NCBI GenBank assembly: GCA_020355165.1
Contig: CP070661.1
Location: 1,946,397-1,999,294, forward strand
Length of the DNA stretch: 52,898 bases
DNA from: Burkholderiales bacterium
Lineage (GTDB): Bacteria; Pseudomonadota; Gammaproteobacteria; Burkholderiales; Burkholderiaceae_F
Direction of reading: 5' to 3'
Positions 12,860-46,471 of the stretch are shown piece after piece (the stretch's first letter is position 1; each line of letters begins with the position of its first letter). The notes beneath the pieces are model-generated. The model saw only the letters and a program-made list of their open reading frames with translations, was not told where the DNA came from and searched no databases. The position numbers were made by a program, and so were the translations under genes.

Positions 12860-12986
12860 GCTGCGAAAGTCGTGATGCAACGGCGCCTCGGTCGAAGGGC
12901 GCCCGGCCCGCAGAACGACGACAGGTTGTCTCCTCCACCTCCTCCTTGGTGGTTCAGGCCCGGCTTCATCGCCGGGCCTTTTTTTT
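12860..12986 (+). ncRNA. Candidate small RNA with anti-Shine-Dalgarno loop
   Basis: Three successive hairpins are visible: GGCGCC/GGCGCC (12882-12887 and 12898-12903), then CCACC/GGTGG (12935-12939 and 12948-12952) with the loop TCCTCCTT, then an intrinsic terminator (12957-12978 plus eight T). The loop CCTCC is complementary to Shine-Dalgarno sequences, and a second CTCC copy lies just 5' of the hairpin. This layout recalls the CUCCUCCC-motif (cuckoo) small RNAs described in alpha- and betaproteobacteria. The 5' end is a guess; I could not identify a convincing promoter (TAGGCT at 12852-12857 is one weak -10 candidate). It could also be the 3' end of the GNAT transcript processed into a small RNA. 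Confidence 0.45.
12957..12986 (+). terminator. Strong Rho-independent terminator
   Basis: GGCCCGGC (12957-12964) and GCCGGGCC (12971-12978) form a perfect 8-bp GC stem around the 6-base loop TTCATC, followed directly by eight T (12979-12986). It acts on plus-strand transcription and is the clearest intrinsic terminator in the window. Confidence 0.92.
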
Positions 12987-36577: not shown

Positions 36578-37240
36578 TCAGCGGCGCAGCTCGCGCACGC
36601 CGTCGGCGCTCCCGAGCAACAGGACGTCGGCGCCGCGCGCGGCGAACAGGCCGTTGGTCACCACGCCGACGATCCTGTCGATGCGCGACTCGGTGGCCAC
36701 CGGCTCGGTGATCGACAGGCCATGCACGTCGAGGATCACGTTGCCGTTGTCGGTGACCACGCCCTGCCGCCAGACCGGCCGGCCGCCGAGCCGGGCCAGC
36801 TCGCGCGCCACGTGGGCGCGCGCCATCGGGACCACCTCGACCGGCAGCGGGAAGCGGCCGAGCACCTCGACCCGCTTGCTGGCGTCGGCGATGCAGACGA
36901 AGGTCTTCGCCACCGCGGCGATGATCTTCTCGCGCGTGAGCGCCGCGCCGCCGCCCTTGATCATGTGAAAGCCGCCGTCGATTTCGTCGGCACCGTCGAT
37001 GTAGACGGGCAGCTCATCGACATCGTTCAGGTCGAGCACCTCGATGCCGATCGCCGTCAGCTTCGCGGTGCTGCGCTCCGAACTGGACACCGCCTGCTTC
37101 ACATCGAGCTTCGCCGCCGCCAGCGCGTCGATGAACAGGTCGACCGTCGAGCCGGTGCCGACGCCCAGCACCTGCCCGGCTCGTACGAAGCGCAGCGCCG
37201 ACTGCGCCACCTGCCGCTTCAGATCGTCCTGCGTAGTCAC
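36578..37240 (-). CDS. rpiA: Ribose-5-phosphate isomerase A
   Basis: A 220-residue enzyme interconverting ribulose 5-phosphate and ribose 5-phosphate in the pentose phosphate pathway. Family signatures are clear: [11 protein letters not shown] (27-37), [36 protein letters not shown] with the catalytic Asp/Glu/Lys region, and [13 protein letters not shown]. The start is GTG at 37240, with a G-rich ribosome site (GGGGG) four bases upstream; the longer frame to 37366 is not family-like. First gene of a minus-strand set and divergent from the DUF1326 gene. Confidence 0.95.
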
Positions 37241-37383
37241 CGTACCCCCGGTCAAGGCGTGTCGGATGTTACCGGGCGCCGAAGCAGGGCATCGTGCGGC
37301 GCAACCAGCCCAGGCGCGCACGGCGAGCATGCGGCCGCTTCGAAGTCGGCTTCCCGCGATGCACAACGGAGCGGGCCCTGCGT

Positions 37384-37441
37384 GTTACGCAGTCCGTTAC
37401 GCGGATCCGCGATTGCCCTTGCACGCTCCTGCACCTAGATT
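37384..37441 (+). promoter_or_regulatory. Candidate promoter and direct repeats upstream of the DUF1326 gene
   Basis: TTGCCC (37413-37418) and TAGATT (37436-37441) with a 17-base spacer form a plausible sigma-70 promoter reading towards the DUF1326 gene. Just upstream are two direct copies of GTTACGC (37384-37390 and 37396-37402), one helical turn apart and also part of the palindrome TGCGT-GTT-ACGCA, a possible regulator site. Confidence 0.4.
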
Positions 37442-37526
37442 GCCGCCTCACGCCCGGCCGACGCGCGTCGCAGCGGCGCCGGCCGCCCCTTCTGTCTCCA
37501 ACCGCAACTGCCGAGGAGAAAAGACC

Positions 37527-38129
37527 ATGGCCTACTCCCTCGAAGGACGTCTGCTCGAAGTCTGCACGTGCAAGGCGGTCTGTCCCTGCTGGGTCGGCGA
37601 GGATCCCGACAACGGCAAGTGCCACGGGCTGATGGCTTGGCACATCGAAAAGGGAAGCATCGACGGCGTCGACGTTTCCGGCCTGACCTTCGGCGCCGTT
37701 GCCAACATTCCCGGCAATGTCCTGAAGGGCAACTGGAAGATCGTCGCCTACGTCGACGACAAGGCCAGCAAGCAGCAGGAAGAGGCGCTGGTGGCGGTCT
37801 GGTCGGGCAAGAAGGGTGGACCGGTCGCCGACCTGGCACAGCTGATCGGCGAGGTGGCGGCCGTCGAGCGTGTGCCGATCACGTTCGAAGTGCAGAAGGG
37901 CGAGGGTCGGCTGCGCATTGGTGGCGTCGTAGTGGCAGACGTCGAGCCGCTGCGCGGTCCGGACGGCAAGCAGACTGTCCTGGTGGACAGCGTGTTCAGC
38001 ACGATCCCGGGGTCGCCGGCCTACGTCGGCAAGGCGCCGAAATACAAGGCCGACGTCCCGAAGATCGGCGTCAACGTCGACATCAGCGGTCACAACTCCG
38101 TCCAGGGACACTTCAGCTTCGTCAGTTGA
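37527..38129 (+). CDS. DUF1326 protein with N-terminal cysteine cluster
   Basis: A 200-residue DUF1326 protein. The N-terminus has the family's cysteine cluster CTCKAVCPCW (Cys13, 15, 19, 21) and a further KCHG (Cys32), a probable metal-binding site. The rest is predicted beta-rich without other motifs; no signal peptide. Function is unknown, but DUF1326 genes are often beside DUF2182 membrane protein genes, as here (104 bases downstream). ATG at 37527 has a GAGGAG ribosome site. The downstream Sec-type methyltransferase gene is in the same direction, so a thiol/metalloid theme is possible (inference). Confidence 0.87.
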   Translation: MAYSLEGRLLEVCTCKAVCPCWVGEDPDNGKCHGLMAWHIEKGSIDGVDVSGLTFGAVANIPGNVLKGNWKIVAYVDDKASKQQEEALVAVWSGKKGGPVADLAQLIGEVAAVERVPITFEVQKGEGRLRIGGVVVADVEPLRGPDGKQTVLVDSVFSTIPGSPAYVGKAPKYKADVPKIGVNVDISGHNSVQGHFSFVS

Positions 38130-38232
38130 CGAGCCTGGGGCGCGCGGACCCGAGGCTCCGGCACCGGCCGCCGCACGGCGGCGCGCAGGGCCACGCCGCC
38201 GTCTCCCGGCCCCGAGACCATTGCCGCCCGCC

Positions 38233-39045
38233 ATGTCGGCACGCATCGATCGATCATCGGTCCTGCTGACCACGCTCGTCGCGCTGGTCGCGCTGGCCTG
38301 GCTGGCGCTGTGGGTCTGGCACGCATCGCCGTACGGCCGCTACCTGAACCACGCGGAGCTGGCGCACTTCGACCTCGCGCGCGAGCCCGGCGAGGCGGCG
38401 TCACAGGCGGCCGTCTATGTGGCCGGCTGGGTGCTGATGACGGCGGCGATGATGCTGCCGACCACCTTCCCGCTGCTGGAGATCTTCCACCGCATGACGC
38501 GGCAGCGGGAAGACCGCCTCCAGTTGCTGGCCCTGGTGATCGCCGGCTACCTCGGCGTGTGGCTGCTGTTCGGCATCGCCGCGCACGCATTCGACCTCGC
38601 GCTGCACGAGGCCTTCGAACGCAGCGGCTGGCTGCAGGCCAACGCGTGGGTGTTCGGCGCCGGGCCGCTGCTGGTCGCCGGCGGCTTCCAGTTCACGCAG
38701 CTGAAGTACCGCTGCCTCGACAAGTGCCGCGCACCGCTGTCTTTCGTCGTGCAGCACTGGCGCGGCGCCGGCGCCCGCGCGCAGGCGCTGCGGCTCGGCG
38801 CGCACCACGGCGCCTTCTGCGTCGGCTGCTGCTGGGCGCTGATGCTGCTGATGTTCGCCGTCGGCACCGGCAACCTCGGCTGGATGCTGGCGCTCGGCGC
38901 GCTGATGGCGATCGAGAAGAACGCGCCCTGGGGCCGCCGCATCAGCGCGCCACTCGGCGTGGCGCTGCTGCTGTGGGGAGCGGCGGTCATGGTCAACGTG
39001 GCCGCGGCCAGCCCCGCGGAGACGCTGGTCTGCCGCGCGCGATAG
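38233..39045 (+). CDS. DUF2182 polytopic membrane protein
   Basis: A 270-residue DUF2182 protein with six to seven membrane segments. Family signatures are the methionine-rich WVLMTAAMMLPTTFPLL (about residues 66-82), FQFTQLKYRCLDKCRAPLSF with two Cys, and HHGAFCVGCCWALMLLMFAVG with three Cys near a His. The Met/Cys/His pattern suggests metal binding or transport, and the family is annotated as predicted metal-binding. ATG at 38233; an alternative start four codons upstream exists. Paired with the DUF1326 gene, which suggests a common function. Confidence 0.85.
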   Translation: MSARIDRSSVLLTTLVALVALAWLALWVWHASPYGRYLNHAELAHFDLAREPGEAASQAAVYVAGWVLMTAAMMLPTTFPLLEIFHRMTRQREDRLQLLALVIAGYLGVWLLFGIAAHAFDLALHEAFERSGWLQANAWVFGAGPLLVAGGFQFTQLKYRCLDKCRAPLSFVVQHWRGAGARAQALRLGAHHGAFCVGCCWALMLLMFAVGTGNLGWMLALGALMAIEKNAPWGRRISAPLGVALLLWGAAVMVNVAAASPAETLVCRAR

Positions 39046-39252
39046 GCCGCGCGGCGACAGAAACCCGGCGCTGGCCTGTTTGGTCAGCACGGGCGGACCG
39101 ACGCTGGCATCCGACCGCTGTCTTTGCTACAAGGCGGGCGCCGGCCCACGACAAGTGCCGGCGCAGCAGCCTCGCGGCCCCGGGCCGCCACAGCATCGCC
39201 ATCGCCGCATTGCACCAGAACAGCAGCTGTCTCTTTCATGGAGGAAGCACGC

Positions 39253-40029
39253 ATGGGTAGTGACTCAGTCGTAGATCCGTCGACCCTTCGCGAGGAGGTG
39301 AAGCACAAGTACCGGGACGTGGCGATCCACCCGGGCGGGGAGTATCACTTCCACACCGGGCGGCCGCTGGCGGCGCGCCTCGGCTACGAGCAGGCGGTGG
39401 TCGACGCGATGCCCGACCAGGCAGTCGAGTCGTTCGCCGGCGTGGCCAATCCGTTCCTGCTGCGCCGCCTGGAGAAGGGCGAGAAGGTCGTCGACGCAGG
39501 CTCCGGGGCGGGATTCGACTGCTTCATCGCCGCGCAGCAGGTCGGCTCGCAGGGGCACGTCATCGGCATCGACATGCTCGAGGAGATGCTCGCCAAGTCG
39601 CGTCGCTCGGCAGCGATGATGGGGCTGGGCAACGTCGAATTCCGGGAGGGGCTGCTGGAGGACATGCCGGTCGAGGACGGCTGGGCCGATGTCGTGATCG
39701 GCAATGGCGTCGTCAACCTGTGCGCCGACAAGCGAAAGGTGTTCTCCGAAATCTGGCGCGTCCTGCGGCCCGGCGGCTGGCTGCAGCTCGCCGACATCGC
39801 CAACGGCAAGCCGATCCCCGAGTCCGCGCTGAGCATCGTCGATCTGTGGACGGCATGAATCGCCGGTGGTCTTCCGTGTGAAGCCTGGCGAGCCATGATG
39901 GCGGAAACGGGATTCGTCGATATCCAGATCAGCGCGCCGGTGGATACCTTTGCGCAGGCGCGCGGCGAGAAGAAGGCCCGTCAGTTCGAGGTCTACGGCC
40001 ACTCGTTCCTGGCGCGCAAGCCCGCGTAG
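39253..40029 (+). CDS. ArsM-like SAM methyltransferase, probable selenoprotein (in-frame TGA at 39856)
   Basis: A 258-residue class I methyltransferase if TGA at 39856-39858 is read as selenocysteine 202. ATG at 39253 follows GGAGGAAG. The SAM site is VVDAGSGAGFDCF (79-91) and GIDMLEEML (105-113). After TGA the same frame continues without a gap, IAGGLPCEAWRAMMAETGF, to a normal family C-terminus (FEVYGHSFLARKP) and TAG at 40027. In relatives the TGA position is a conserved Cys just before the (I/L)(A/G)GGL motif; in algal ArsM it is the arsenic-binding Cys224. Other cysteines are C90, C157 and C209. A SECIS-like hairpin follows directly. Likely substrate: a metalloid or other soft nucleophile acceptor. 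The alternative is a Cys-to-stop pseudogene, which I consider less likely given the SECIS and intact downstream frame. Confidence 0.8.
39856..39891 (+). promoter_or_regulatory. UGA codon and bacterial SECIS-like hairpin
   Basis: UGA (39856-39858) is followed by a stem-loop: outer stem UCGCC/GGCGA (39860-39864 and 39887-39891), an internal loop, then GG (39868-39869), bulged U39870, CUUC/GAAG (39871-39874 and 39880-39883), loop CGUGU (39875-39879), and CC (39884-39885). The E. coli fdhF element has the same order: GG, bulged U17, four-base-pair stem, GU-containing loop, CC, starting 11 bases after UGA against 9 here. SelB recognises the bulged U and the loop GU. Confidence 0.75.
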
Positions 40030-40221
40030 CGCTCCGCTTCGGCGGGGCGTGCAGCACCCGCCTCGCCGGCCGGCAACGGGTCACGGCACGTGCCGGCCGG
40101 CGGCGGTCGCTCATCGCGAACGGGGCAACCGCGGCCGATAGCGGGCGCCAGGTCGGCGTGCCGTAACCTCGCATCTGGCGCGCTGCCCGCGGAGCTCGTT
40201 CTATTGCCGGGAACCCGACCG

Positions 40222-41559
40222 ATGGCCTCCGAGATCAAATACGCAAAGAACGGCGCCGTTCACATCGCCTACCGCGTGTTGGGGGCGGGCCCGGTCGATC
40301 TCGTCATCGTGCCCGGCTGGGTGTCGCACCTGGAGGCGCACTGGGAGAACCCGCTGGTGTGGCGATTCGCCGAGCGGCTCGCGTCGTTCAGCCGCCTGAT
40401 CCTTTTCGACAAGCGGGGCACCGGCCTGTCCGACCCCGTCTCCGAAGACCGCCTGCCGACGCTTGAAATGCGGATGGAAGACCTGCACGCGGTGCTCAAC
40501 GCGGTGGGCTCGAGCCGGGCGGCGCTGTTCGGCATTTCGGAGGGTGGTGCGATGTCTGCCCTGTTTGCGGCGACCTATCCCGAGCGCACGGCTGCGCTGA
40601 TCATGTCGGGTTGCTACGCAAAGTGGATCAGGGCCGACGATTACCCGTGGGCGCCCACGCGGGAGGAGCACGAGGCCGCGTTCGTAGCCTACGAGAAGCA
40701 CTGGGGCACCGCGATAGGCTTCAAGACGGTCGCGCCGTCGGTGGCGAACGACGAGAGCTGCCGCAACTGGTGGGCGCGCAACCTCCGGCTCGGCGCGAGC
40801 CCCGGCGCGGGCATCGCGCTGTACCGGATGAACATCGAAATCGACATCCGCAACGTCCTGTCTTCGATCAGCGCGCCGACGCTGATTCTCCACCGGCAGG
40901 GCGACCGGCTGATCAGCGTCGAGAACTCCCGCTACCTGGCGAGCCACATCCCTGGCGCCAGGCTGGTCGAACTGAGCGGCGCCGATCACCTGCCCTGGTT
41001 CGGCGACTCCGACACGGTACTCGACGAGGTCGAGGAATTCCTGACCGGGGCCCGCCCCGCGATGGCGACCGAGCGCGTGCTCTCGACGATCCTGTTCATC
41101 GACATCGTCGCCTCGACGGAGCGTGCGCGGTCCCTGGGCGATGCGCGCTGGCGCGATCTGCTCGGTTCTTTTCATGCCCAGGTCGAGCAGGAACTGGCCC
41201 GATTCGGCGGGCGCCTGATCGACACCGCCGGCGATGGCGTGTTTGCCAGCTTCGACGGGCCCGCGCGGGCCGTACGCTGCGCGCTGGCGCTGCGCGAACG
41301 GGCGGCGAGGCTCGGAGTCGCGATCCGTGCCGGTGTTCACACGGGCGAATGCGAGATCGCCGGCGGCAAGCTGGCAGGCATCGCTGTGCATACGGGCGCG
41401 CGAATCGCCGCCGCTGCCGAGCGTGGCGAAGTCCTGGTTTCGAGCACCGTCAAGAGCCTCGTCGCAGGTTCCGGCCTGCGCTTTGCCGGCCGCGGGCGGC
41501 ACCACCTCAAGGGCCTGGAGGACGAACTCGAACTGTTCGCGGCCGAAAGCCTTGCTTAG
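40222..41559 (+). CDS. Alpha/beta hydrolase fused to class III nucleotide cyclase domain
   Basis: A 445-residue fusion. The N-terminal alpha/beta hydrolase (about 1-275) has LFDKRGTGLSD, nucleophile elbow GISEGG (Ser106), HRQGDRL (Asp228) and ADHLPW (His256), a full triad. The C-terminal cyclase homology domain (about 285-445) carries metal Asp294 in FIDIVAST and Asp338 in TAGDGVFASF. Hydrolase-cyclase fusions occur in actinobacteria and some proteobacteria, where the hydrolase may act as a ligand sensor. ATG at 40222 starts the conserved EIKYAKNG. It follows the methyltransferase gene by 192 bases. Confidence 0.88.
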   Translation: MASEIKYAKNGAVHIAYRVLGAGPVDLVIVPGWVSHLEAHWENPLVWRFAERLASFSRLILFDKRGTGLSDPVSEDRLPTLEMRMEDLHAVLNAVGSSRAALFGISEGGAMSALFAATYPERTAALIMSGCYAKWIRADDYPWAPTREEHEAAFVAYEKHWGTAIGFKTVAPSVANDESCRNWWARNLRLGASPGAGIALYRMNIEIDIRNVLSSISAPTLILHRQGDRLISVENSRYLASHIPGARLVELSGADHLPWFGDSDTVLDEVEEFLTGARPAMATERVLSTILFIDIVASTERARSLGDARWRDLLGSFHAQVEQELARFGGRLIDTAGDGVFASFDGPARAVRCALALRERAARLGVAIRAGVHTGECEIAGGKLAGIAVHTGARIAAAAERGEVLVSSTVKSLVAGSGLRFAGRGRHHLKGLEDELELFAAESLA

Positions 41560-43100: not shown

Positions 43101-44780
43101 CTATCTTTTGAGCAGGTCCCTGGCGCCGGTATCGTCCACTCCATGCATGTCAGGCACATTGATGGCGTGTTCGCTGAACCACTTGCTTGCATCCAGCCGC
43201 TCGTAGCGGCCCTTAGGCTCCACAGGGAAGCGTATCGGTTGGCCAGGCTTGACGGGCAGTACTTTTCCTTCATTCACCACGATCGTGCCGTTGACGATCA
43301 CGTAGGGAATGCCCACCGGCGGCAGCCCATTCTCGCCATTCTTGTAGGTTGCGCGCGGAGCCACGGTCTTCGGATCGAACAGGGTCAGGTCGGCGATCTT
43401 GCCGACTTGCACTCGCCCTCGCTGCTTCATCGCTTCGAGGCCGGTATCCCCCAGATGCTTGGCCGTCCAGTAACTCAGCTGCGACAACGTGAACATCAGC
43501 GGCACGCCGTTGTCTCGCGCCAGTTTCAACGTGGTGGAGTAAGACGACGCTGTGCGCGGGTGTCCGGCGTATTTGCGTACATCTGCGTCCCAGGGCAGGA
43601 GATTTCCGTCTTTGTCCACCCCTTGCATCGCATCTGATGCGACCACCATCTCCGGGATGGACAGCCAGTACTTCATCCACTTCTTGCGCGGCGGAAAGTG
43701 CACCACGATGAAGTAGCCCGGTTTCTCCTTCACCATCTTCAGGTACTCGTCCTTCGACAGGAACTTGTCGGCACCCGGGTCATAAATCGTTTCCTCGTAC
43801 TTGTTCCCGAGGGTCTTCTCCCACAAGTCAGGCCGCAGGAAGTCAGCGCTGACAAGGGTGGAACCGGCGGCAAATGGGTAGTACTCGCCCCACACGTTGA
43901 AGCCCTGCTTGCGGGCCATCTGCAGCTTCTCTTCGTTCTCCCACCAGCCGTAGTCATTGTCGTGCGCCAACAGCAGCGGCGCCTTCAGCAGCATTGCATT
44001 GACCAGCACTTCGTCGAGCGCGATCGGGGCTTCGGTGGGTGTCTGCGTATTCAGGTGATAGCGCGTATGCACGGATGCCAGGCGACCGTATCGCGCCGCG
44101 GTGCGCTGCGCTTCGAACTGCTCGTAGCTGGTTATGCCGCGTGCCGCATAGGCAAGCGGGAAACCAATGCCAATGGCCCCTTCACGCAGCCCTTCGTCGA
44201 GCAGCTGCATGATCTGATTCATCTGCGGAAGGGAACTGCGCGTCAATGACCAGCCCTGCACGCCGTCCTTGGCGCTTTCGTTGATGTACCGCCCTCCGTT
44301 CGAAGCGTCGATCGGCTCGTTGATCTTCACTTCCGGATCATGGACCAGCATCCGCACCAGGTTCATTCCCACCGTGGTGCCGTAGTTCACCTGCCAGCCC
44401 GCCTTTTCCTTCCTGGCGTACCACTCGGCTATGCGCGTCGCTCCCGCCTCGAGATCCATGCCGGTCGTCACGCCATCGGCCACCACCAGTTTGGTGGCAA
44501 ACGGATCAACCGAGTGAAAGTGGGTATCGATGAAGCCTGGCGCCACCACCAGACCCTTTGCGTCGATCGTCTGCTTGCCCTTTATCGCGCTCTTGGTAAT
44601 TACAGCGATCTTGCCGTCGCTGATACCGACGTTGGCGACTGCGTCGTACTGGGTTTCCGGATCCATCACCCGCCCGCCGTTGATGACGAGGTCGTAGTCG
44701 GCGCTCATGACCGGCGAGGCCGCTGTGACCAGAGCGGTTGCGAAGGCGAGTCCTTGGATGATCCTCATTGTCGATCGCAT
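43101..44780 (-). CDS. Exported amidohydrolase (D-aminoacylase-like), paralogue 1
   Basis: A 559-residue metal-dependent amidohydrolase with a signal peptide (about 1-26). FIDTHFHS (His87, His89) is the first metal site; SVHTRYH, LLLAHDND and MVVASDAM provide the later His and Asp ligands. The N-acyl-D-amino-acid deacylase family normally has a bridging Cys in the GVTT segment; here it reads GVTTGMDLEAGA, with Glu as the likely bridging ligand. Substrate unknown, probably an N-acyl amino acid or peptide in the periplasm. ATG at 44780 follows GAGGAAA. The paralogue lies 35 bases upstream in the same direction. Confidence 0.85.
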   Translation of the reverse strand: MRSTMRIIQGLAFATALVTAASPVMSADYDLVINGGRVMDPETQYDAVANVGISDGKIAVITKSAIKGKQTIDAKGLVVAPGFIDTHFHSVDPFATKLVVADGVTTGMDLEAGATRIAEWYARKEKAGWQVNYGTTVGMNLVRMLVHDPEVKINEPIDASNGGRYINESAKDGVQGWSLTRSSLPQMNQIMQLLDEGLREGAIGIGFPLAYAARGITSYEQFEAQRTAARYGRLASVHTRYHLNTQTPTEAPIALDEVLVNAMLLKAPLLLAHDNDYGWWENEEKLQMARKQGFNVWGEYYPFAAGSTLVSADFLRPDLWEKTLGNKYEETIYDPGADKFLSKDEYLKMVKEKPGYFIVVHFPPRKKWMKYWLSIPEMVVASDAMQGVDKDGNLLPWDADVRKYAGHPRTASSYSTTLKLARDNGVPLMFTLSQLSYWTAKHLGDTGLEAMKQRGRVQVGKIADLTLFDPKTVAPRATYKNGENGLPPVGIPYVIVNGTIVVNEGKVLPVKPGQPIRFPVEPKGRYERLDASKWFSEHAINVPDMHGVDDTGARDLLKR

Positions 44781-44815
44781 GCAGTTTTCCTCTGTGGCTT
44801 CAGCAGGTCACGGCG

Positions 44816-46471
44816 TCAGTGGATGTGCTCGTCGCGTTCGAGCCCGAAGAACCCTGTCGGCGCAACCAGATTCCTGTTCGCCCAGCCCTCGACCGACAAC
44901 GGCTCGAAACGGGGCTTGGCCTGCACGGGAAACCGGATGGGCTGGCCGGGATGGACGTCCTTCAGCACTTTGGAGTTCTTCACGACGATCGTGCCGTTGA
45001 CGATCACGTAGGGGATGCCCGTCGTCGGCAACGTGCCCTTCGCATAGGTCGCGTTGTCCTTGACGGTCCTCGGATCGATGAGCGTGATGTCGGCGACCAT
45101 GCCTTTCTGTAGACGCCCGCGCTCCTTCATCGCCTGGAGGCCGGTATCACCGAGATACTTCGCCGCGTTGTAGCTGGAAGCCGCCAGGACCTGCATCAGC
45201 GGAATGCCTTTTTCGCGCGCGATTCGCAGGCAGGTGCCATGCGTTCCGGCCAGGCGCGGATGCGTATTGGGGATCTTCTCGTAGGGCGTGTCCCAGTGCG
45301 GCGGATCGTCCCAGCCGCCCGGCACCATCATGGCGTCGCTCGCATAGACGATGCCCGGCAAGCGGCACCAGTCTGGAATCGCATCGGGCGGCATCTTGTA
45401 GAGCACGATCTGCGTCGCCGGCGCCTCGGCCAGCACCTTCTTGTACTTCTCCAGCGTGTAGAACTCCTGGGTCAGAGGATCCTGCATCGTTTCCTCGTAC
45501 TTGTTGCCGAGCTTCTCGACCCAGTTCTCCGGTCTGGCAAAGGACGCGTTGATCGTCGTCTGCCCCGCCGCGTAGGGATAGATTTCGCCCCAGACGTTGT
45601 GGCCCCGCTTGCGCAGGCGCTCGAGCAGCTCCTGGACGAGCTGCCAGCCCGGGTTGTTGAAGTGATTGATGATGGCGGGCGCGCCGAGGGCAACGGCGTT
45701 GGCGAGGATTTCCTGCGCGCCGTTCGCCTCCGTCGTGACGGTTCCCGGCGTGTAGCGCAGGTGAACCGAGGTCGGCCGCCCGTAATCGGCCCCGACCCGC
45801 TGGACTTCGAACATTTCGCGCGCGGTGGCGCCGGGCATGTAGCCGACGGTGGACGCGACGGCGATCGCGCCCTGGCGCAGACCCTCGTCGATGAGCGCCA
45901 GCATTCGGTTGCCCTTGTCGAGGTCCAGCACTTCGTCGGACCAGGCCTTTCCCGACCCCCGGCCTTTCACCACCGACCACGGGGCATCGAGTAGGTCTGC
46001 ATCCGAAAGGTTCTGCGTGACCTTGGTGCGCGCGAACTCGTGGCCCGATGCCGTGCCGTAGTTCACCTGGCTCCTGCCGGCATGCATCCTGTACCACTCG
46101 TCCACGCGCGGGCCGTACGCCCCCGCCTCCAGATCCATCGCCGTGGTGACACCGTCGCGCAACGCCATCTTGTAGCCGATCGGGCGAGTCCAGTGGAAAT
46201 GGGTATCGATGAATCCCGGGGCTACGACCAATCCCTGGGCGTCGATGGTTTCCTTGCCGGCGATCTTGTCCTTCGTGATGACGGCGATCCTGCCGCCCTT
46301 GATGCCGACGTTTGCGACCGCGTCGAACATCGTCTCCGGATCCATCACCCGGCCGCCGTTGATGACGAGGTCGTAGTCGGCAGCCTGGACCGGTGTGGCG
46401 ATGCCGATGGCCAGAGCGGCGATCGCCGCGGCAGCGAGCTGCCTGCCGCACGATCCTGTCTCTCGTTTCAC
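44816..46471 (-). CDS. Exported amidohydrolase (D-aminoacylase-like), paralogue 2
   Basis: A 551-residue paralogue of the next gene, aligning throughout (ADYDLVINGGRVMDPET near the N-terminus, GIPYVIVNGTIVV and PGQPIRFPV near the end are shared). Metal ligands: FIDTHFHW (His91, His93), GVTTAMDLEAGA (Glu), SVHLRYT, AIINHFNN and IVYASDAM. A signal peptide ends near VQAA (residue 31). The start is GTG at 46471 with GAGGAG seven bases upstream. The two differ in substrate-loop segments, so they may act on related but different N-acyl substrates. The receiver gene ends 24 bases upstream, close enough for cotranscription. Confidence 0.85.
   Translation of the reverse strand: MKRETGSCGRQLAAAAIAALAIGIATPVQAADYDLVINGGRVMDPETMFDAVANVGIKGGRIAVITKDKIAGKETIDAQGLVVAPGFIDTHFHWTRPIGYKMALRDGVTTAMDLEAGAYGPRVDEWYRMHAGRSQVNYGTASGHEFARTKVTQNLSDADLLDAPWSVVKGRGSGKAWSDEVLDLDKGNRMLALIDEGLRQGAIAVASTVGYMPGATAREMFEVQRVGADYGRPTSVHLRYTPGTVTTEANGAQEILANAVALGAPAIINHFNNPGWQLVQELLERLRKRGHNVWGEIYPYAAGQTTINASFARPENWVEKLGNKYEETMQDPLTQEFYTLEKYKKVLAEAPATQIVLYKMPPDAIPDWCRLPGIVYASDAMMVPGGWDDPPHWDTPYEKIPNTHPRLAGTHGTCLRIAREKGIPLMQVLAASSYNAAKYLGDTGLQAMKERGRLQKGMVADITLIDPRTVKDNATYAKGTLPTTGIPYVIVNGTIVVKNSKVLKDVHPGQPIRFPVQAKPRFEPLSVEGWANRNLVAPTGFFGLERDEHIH

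Follow-up and report, generated by a model that had tools for sequence, protein, structure and literature searches.

Enzymes of the ArsM type are the closest described relatives of the protein analysed here. According to the part of PMC5552862 that deals with its cysteines, ArsM requires at least three of four conserved Cys residues (C72, C174, C224 and C44). In the summary given in PMC8649762, TtArsM of Thermus thermophilus has a single Cys and is able to methylate arsenite, and two His residues matter according to its mutants. The "arsenite methyltransferase" is also an already catalogued selenoprotein family. The 2026 review PMC13188914, citing Fomenko 2007, has the entry "Arsenite methyltransferase, NF008823, UxxG, WP_011987699.1" in the block of its table that precedes "Predicted with high confidence", and it also lists the fusions ArsM_AhpD_UU, ArsM_DUF2284_UU and MTase_UXPK_star with the motif UxxG in all three. 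PRK11873 arsM is listed as a selenoprotein in the relevant part of PMC9312934; the portion of PMC5029168 concerned gives 41 selenoproteins in 39 organisms for arsenite methyltransferase, and for arsenite S-adenosylmethyltransferase a table row of PMC2398784 shows the figure 8, which refers to the Global Ocean Sampling set. Neither arsenite nor ArsM came up when terms were looked up in PMC1088965, PMC12013277 and PMC8318568. None of the literature titles listed concerned a selenocysteine (Sec)-containing ArsM devoid of the other two cysteines, "single cysteine" being the nearest term, which is no proof of absence. Since the family is already listed among selenoproteins, the kind of gene described below is known, and this gene is a well-supported new member of it.

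The window (the whole stretch of DNA analysed, 52,898 nucleotides) belongs to a genome of 3.74 Mb in one contig with a completeness of 93.04. The features that concern the methyltransferase are as follows.

39240-39246, + strand: probable ribosome binding site (ggaggaa) 5' of the ATG at 39253, found by eye
39253-40029, + strand: gene of an ArsM-like SAM-dependent methyltransferase of 258 aa with predicted Sec at residue 202 (translation, profile matches, fold model)
39856-39858, + strand: in-frame UGA, predicted to be read as selenocysteine, at the place of CmArsM C224 (translation, alignment)
39868-39886, + strand: putative hairpin of the bacterial SECIS kind, with 6 of 7 consensus pairs in the window copy (pair conservation over 80 TGA sequences; folding of the copy in the window)
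40027-40029, + strand: terminal TAG (translation)

Translation of 39253-40029 gives 201 residues, the TGA at 39856-39858, 56 more residues and the TAG, 258 aa in all; an alternative start is provided by an in-frame ATG at 39238. Pfam Methyltransf_31 matches residues 74-190 of the protein (5.9e-29) and NCBIfam PRK11873, arsenite methyltransferase, matches residues 13-232 (1.1e-63). The region C-terminal of the TGA aligns with relatives up to the end of the protein. The sequence-only reading had described a single TGA inside an otherwise intact methyltransferase frame that ends at a TAG, and both the translation and the alignment of relatives bear this out.

Named genome contigs were scanned with alignment A2, and out of 509 relatives that were confirmed, the 80 with the best matches were kept as loci. 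The column of residue 202 is TGA in 76 of these 80 loci (L069 and L119 are read as TGA) and TGC in the other four (L089, L095, L108 and L129); the scan used Sec-form queries and therefore 76:4 is not the natural ratio of TGA to TGC. The 76 TGA loci belong to Pseudomonadota (41), Actinomycetota (14), Acidobacteriota (7), Chloroflexota (6), Thermodesulfobacteriota (3), Gemmatimonadota (2), Thermomicrobiota (1) and Candidatus Schekmaniibacteriota (1), with one locus having no phylum label, so that eight named phyla are covered by the best 80 of 509 relatives. One of the loci, L056, is the same DNA as the L022/G076 copy. Cultured organisms are among the carriers, for instance Enhydrobacter aerosaccus (L072) and Pseudonocardia asaccharolytica (L087). 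A search of 200 genomes (the own genome and relatives) aligned 18 loci among the matches listed, with Cys in 13 and TGA in five, namely the own genome, G008 (74%), G076 (73%), G147 (42%) and G001 (74%, a fragment). Matches to the methyltransferase were also present in 253 plasmid records, every one below 60% identity.

The sharing of this column by TGA and TGC means that the placement of the TGA is not due to chance. The UGA thus has homologous sequence on both sides and is aligned with Cys or UGA in homologues, as in a bacterial selenoprotein gene, and the exchange of Cys for Sec proposed earlier at this position agrees with what the homologues carry. Among the three findings that the earlier reading had named as speaking against it are a lack of homologues with TGA at this column and a misread TGC or TGT at 39856-39858. 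Many homologues have the TGA. As to a sequencing error turning TGC or TGT into TGA, nothing suggests it beyond the window being one assembly; the same TGA recurs in contigs from many assemblies with different names, and a misread base can therefore be dismissed as the cause. Sequencing error is ruled out on this ground, its probability being close to nil.

The genes for Sec insertion, selA (574.9 bits), selB (450.4 bits), selC (75.5 bits with a cut-off of 47; tRNA-SeC with anticodon TCA according to ARAGORN) and selD (429.9 bits), are all present in the own genome, and the third objection named in the earlier reading, that sel genes might be missing, falls away. The formate dehydrogenase alpha subunit of this genome (1483.7 bits) has one in-frame TGA, in ARI*HAPTVASLAPTFGRG, which we take to be the usual Sec place of formate dehydrogenase. 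Among 50 genomes tested, which took in 46 of the 76 TGA loci, selA is over the cut-off in 42 (41/46 with TGA and 1/4 with TGC). Short C-terminal pieces of selA are found in two of the five TGA genomes that have no selA over the cut-off. The five TGA-form genomes of an 18-genome set include four with selA (G000, G008, G076 and G147); in the fifth, G001 (a draft, 77% complete), neither selA nor tRNA-Sec is over the cut-off. Six genomes have a one-Cys form and showed no TGA form (G088, G177, G130, G156, G195 and G155); of these, G088 alone has selA. It is present in six of seven carriers of a three-Cys ArsM (G080, G142, G120, G104, G164, G019 and G012), and by itself is therefore no marker of the Sec form. 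Matches to tRNA-Sec near the cut-off (48-50 bits) were also obtained for G177, G142 and G155, all of them without selA, and for this reason only strong matches, such as that of the own genome, were used.

Flanks reaching at most 5 kb on either side of the loci, 628.5 kb in total, were scanned for sel genes. A sel gene lies 40-249 bp from the methyltransferase in five of the 80 loci (L050, L055, L063, L069 and L086). In L063 (171-6863) selA and selB are situated upstream of the Sec methyltransferase and selD starts 52 bp downstream; this is a predicted selenoprotein gene inside a sel cluster. A selA match with one internal TGA was seen at G224:C24:10358-11668, in the genome of L084.

The hairpin is numbered from the T of the TGA as 0, and its 7-bp stem is formed by pairs 12-30 to 18-24. 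It was studied in 80 TGA sequences (the 76 loci, the window, L021, L023 and L035). The fraction of stem pairs formed is 0.945 versus a mean of 0.714 in synonymous re-draws, in which codons were swapped among synonyms according to each gene's own usage (sd 0.014; the highest of 1000 re-draws reached 0.752). All seven pairs are formed in 52 of the 80 sequences, compared with 4.7 on average and 11 at most when 300 re-draws were made; the register of the stem was picked after inspection of the same sequences, and sequences that are related to each other do not count as independent events. The stem columns vary together: in 79 distinct sequences pair 14-28 is CG in 44, TA in 20, TG in 4, GC in 2 and unpaired in 9, and pair 13-29 is GC in 47, CG in 23, GT in 2, TG in 1 and unpaired in 6. 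Cys relatives served as controls, 14 of 17 sequences being entered (L028, L030 and L033 were left out). In these 14, 0.429 of the pairs are formed, five of seven in three sequences and all seven in none. A 7-bp hairpin just 3' of the TGA is thus kept beyond the need of the amino acid sequence and is weak in the Cys relatives tested.

The window copy forms six of the seven pairs, with T facing C at 14-28. Alone it folds no better than its shuffles (z -0.84; 35 of 200 shuffles at least equal), and the case for a SECIS hairpin directly downstream of the UGA therefore rests on comparison. The conservation of identical codons in single sequence pairs is only suggestive, being 10/10 vs 0.63 elsewhere for L020/L021 but 5/9 vs 0.51 elsewhere for L020/L022. 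At the Rfam gathering threshold the sole match in the window is a small RNA unrelated to the methyltransferase, RF02278, Betaproteobacteria toxic small RNA, at 12927-12985 (+) with 54.3 bits (gathering score 50).

These data also bear on the possibility that translation truly ends at the TGA or that the TGA arose by nonsense mutation, leaving a truncated protein or a pseudogene. Formally the frame is indeed closed by the TGA. The identical TGA in 76 of the 80 loci, together with the retention of both the hairpin and the C-terminal part, makes such a stop extremely improbable and rules out a pseudogene. The segment 39253-40029 is almost certainly a selenoprotein gene, the TGA of which is predicted to insert selenocysteine at the active site, and the interpretation of this segment as coding for a Sec-containing ArsM-like methyltransferase is supported.

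The predicted protein has the ArsM fold and the SAM-binding methyltransferase domain. The fold model (mean pLDDT 93.5, pTM 0.92) has ArsM crystal structures as its top PDB matches, namely 4fr0 (CmArsM), which is the best, 5evj and 6cx6. In the phmmer alignment with CmArsM (4fr0, E 4.1e-24), C72 corresponds to V64, C174 to G152 and C224 to residue 202; these numbers were counted by hand from the printed alignment, outside which C44 lies. Residue 152 is Gly in all 80 loci, and residue 64 is Val, Ile or Thr and never Cys in the 79 readable loci (L115 is out of frame). Hence the fold, the SAM site and the C224 place are common to CmArsM, the other three-Cys ArsM proteins and the window protein, whereas the latter has neither C72 nor C174 and has Sec for C224. 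As judged from the alignment, the three-thiolate As site is gone, with only the C224 place kept, as Sec. The designation "ArsM-like" used in the earlier reading is right, but the protein may not be a true arsenite methyltransferase, as two of the three As-ligand cysteines are missing. It is best described as a member of the ArsM superfamily, a predicted Sec methyltransferase in which the metalloid site has been rebuilt. Of 79 readable loci, 77 retain a His-x-His motif at 32-34; since one of the two patterns used for the scan contained this motif, part of its conservation comes from selection.

The profile of arsenite methyltransferase ArsM, NF008823, gives 215.3 bits for the window protein with Sec read as Cys, below the curated cut-off of 263; five other Sec rows score 214-237 bits and three three-Cys ArsM rows 323-345 bits. 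In a quick tree of 62 rows, an SH-aLRT of 98 supports the split between the seven three-Cys rows and the 55 Sec/one-Cys rows. The Sec label needs five changes in this tree, which has 59 inner branches, 25 of them open, and long branches for two one-Cys rows. A separate three-Cys ArsM of the own genome lies at C1:2334321-2335139 (LGCGNP, SNCVINL, LWVGCVAGAL; 359.8 bits), 348 kb from the Sec gene. The frames after it are read, by eye only, as an ArsR regulator and an ACR3-type transporter.

Like the listed Sec "arsenite methyltransferase" (PRK11873/NF008823), the window protein is an ArsM-like SAM methyltransferase with predicted Sec in U-x-x-G, here U-I-A-G. The methyltransferase parts of the three listed fusions also align with it: ArsM_AhpD_UU (NF041537) at residues 7-228 with E 1.3e-62, ArsM_DUF2284_UU (NF041536) at 9-228 with E 1.4e-57 and MTase_UXPK_star (NF047649) at 10-226 with E 3.6e-54. 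Their names mark them as fusions with a second domain, and they are listed with two or three Sec, whereas the window protein consists of a single domain of 258 aa and has one Sec; its scores lie far below the respective cut-offs (211.6 vs 510, 195.1 vs 575 and 183.7 vs 460 bits). TtArsM resembles it in combining ArsM-type activity, one Cys and two His, a likeness drawn from the description of that enzyme in PMC8649762. The Cys of TtArsM (C77) precedes its GxGxG (114-118) and there is no Sec, while Sec202 follows the SAM motif; C77 is therefore not at the C224 place and TtArsM is only a loose precedent. By this analogy, working with one Cys is possible in principle.

The neighbours of the gene vary between loci. 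In 81 loci (the 80 and the window) no gene family is near most of them. Neighbour clusters include ArsR-rhodanese (10), ECF sigma factor (6), metallo-beta-lactamase fold (5), OsmC (5) and DsrE (5), where the clusters were named from a Pfam scan of one member each and the counts have no background rate; they give a hint of sulfur or metalloid stress. Among 126 nearest-gene proteins the commonest Pfam match is another methyltransferase domain (10). This number was obtained from 127 neighbour proteins (selected by base-composition score, less than 600 bp away and shorter than 700 aa) after setting aside two of L056, because that locus duplicates L022, and by taking in the selA of L055. A second methyltransferase-like frame was seen near the Sec/Cys methyltransferase in L108 (4040-4891), L095 (4095-4895), L053 (3659-4489) and others. 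In the window itself, a DUF1326 frame and then a PpoB2 frame (PF09948, copper chaperone) are located directly upstream of the methyltransferase (37044-39045, +); neither family is among the 25 neighbour clusters listed. An alpha/beta hydrolase fused with an adenylate/guanylate cyclase domain is found at 40090-41559 (+), and a tandem pair of similar amidohydrolase-like frames of 559 and 551 aa, noted by eye, at 43101-46471 (-).

The best explanation of the data as a whole, which we consider on balance probable, is SECIS-aided Sec decoding combined with a methyltransferase that holds a trivalent metalloid by its Sec. The UGA would be decoded as selenocysteine by SelA, SelB, SelC and SelD of the host, a step strongly supported by comparison, and the hairpin just downstream would help this decoding. 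The selenol would stand in for the thiolate at the C224 place of a SAM-dependent methyltransferase, as the alignment supports. Its selenolate may then hold a soft trivalent metalloid beside SAM; this is our best guess as to the substrate, and we infer the role of Sec as its ligand because CmArsM C224 aligns at residue 202. Rather than free arsenite, the substrate would most likely be an arsenical that is methylated or bound to a thiol. The N-terminal His-x-His perhaps helps by standing in for the Cys ligands that were lost, and easy redox cycling of the selenolate could speed release after methyl transfer.

The loss of C72 and C174 and the separate three-Cys ArsM in the own genome make any assignment of the substrate tentative. 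The same two observations point to a reading that is possible without being probable: Sec is inserted and the soft-ligand residue of the ArsM site is kept, and the substrate is Se, Te, Sb or a persulfide or thiol instead of arsenic. The separation of the three-Cys ArsM from the Sec/one-Cys rows in the tree, the recurrent sulfur-type clusters (ArsR-rhodanese, metallo-beta-lactamase fold, OsmC and DsrE) and the sel genes close by in five loci agree with a non-arsenic substrate. However, no neighbour family is common near the loci, regulators of the ArsR type also fit arsenic, and the ECF sigma factor cluster fits neither reading. A broader proposal, which we regard as rather unlikely, is a clade of selenol-dependent methyltransferases, seen here in eight named phyla, none of which would methylate arsenite. 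In their rebuilt ArsM site Sec and His-x-His would replace the three cysteines, and the enzymes, some of them encoded in sel clusters, would act on another soft element, a thiol or a persulfide.

It is also conceivable, with a low probability, that Sec is a redox centre, oxidized and reduced in turn, perhaps with C209, and not a substrate ligand. Most known selenoproteins are redox enzymes, as stated in the part of PMC9312934 concerned, and C209, seven residues past Sec, is present in 22 of 46 rows. It is missing in the other 24, and the residue with which CmArsM occupies the column of residue 202 binds As according to the corresponding part of PMC5552862; both observations speak against a redox centre.

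Taken together, there is a strong case that the seemingly broken gene at 39253-40029 is a working selenoprotein gene, and the Sec form is shown to be widespread within one branch of the ArsM superfamily. To name this branch "arsenite methyltransferase" may mislead, and the label may be wrong, because two of the three metalloid ligands are missing. The absence of these ligands and the presence of another ArsM in this genome are the part worth following, and the enzyme of the window would be a clean test case for the role of a selenolate in a methyltransferase.
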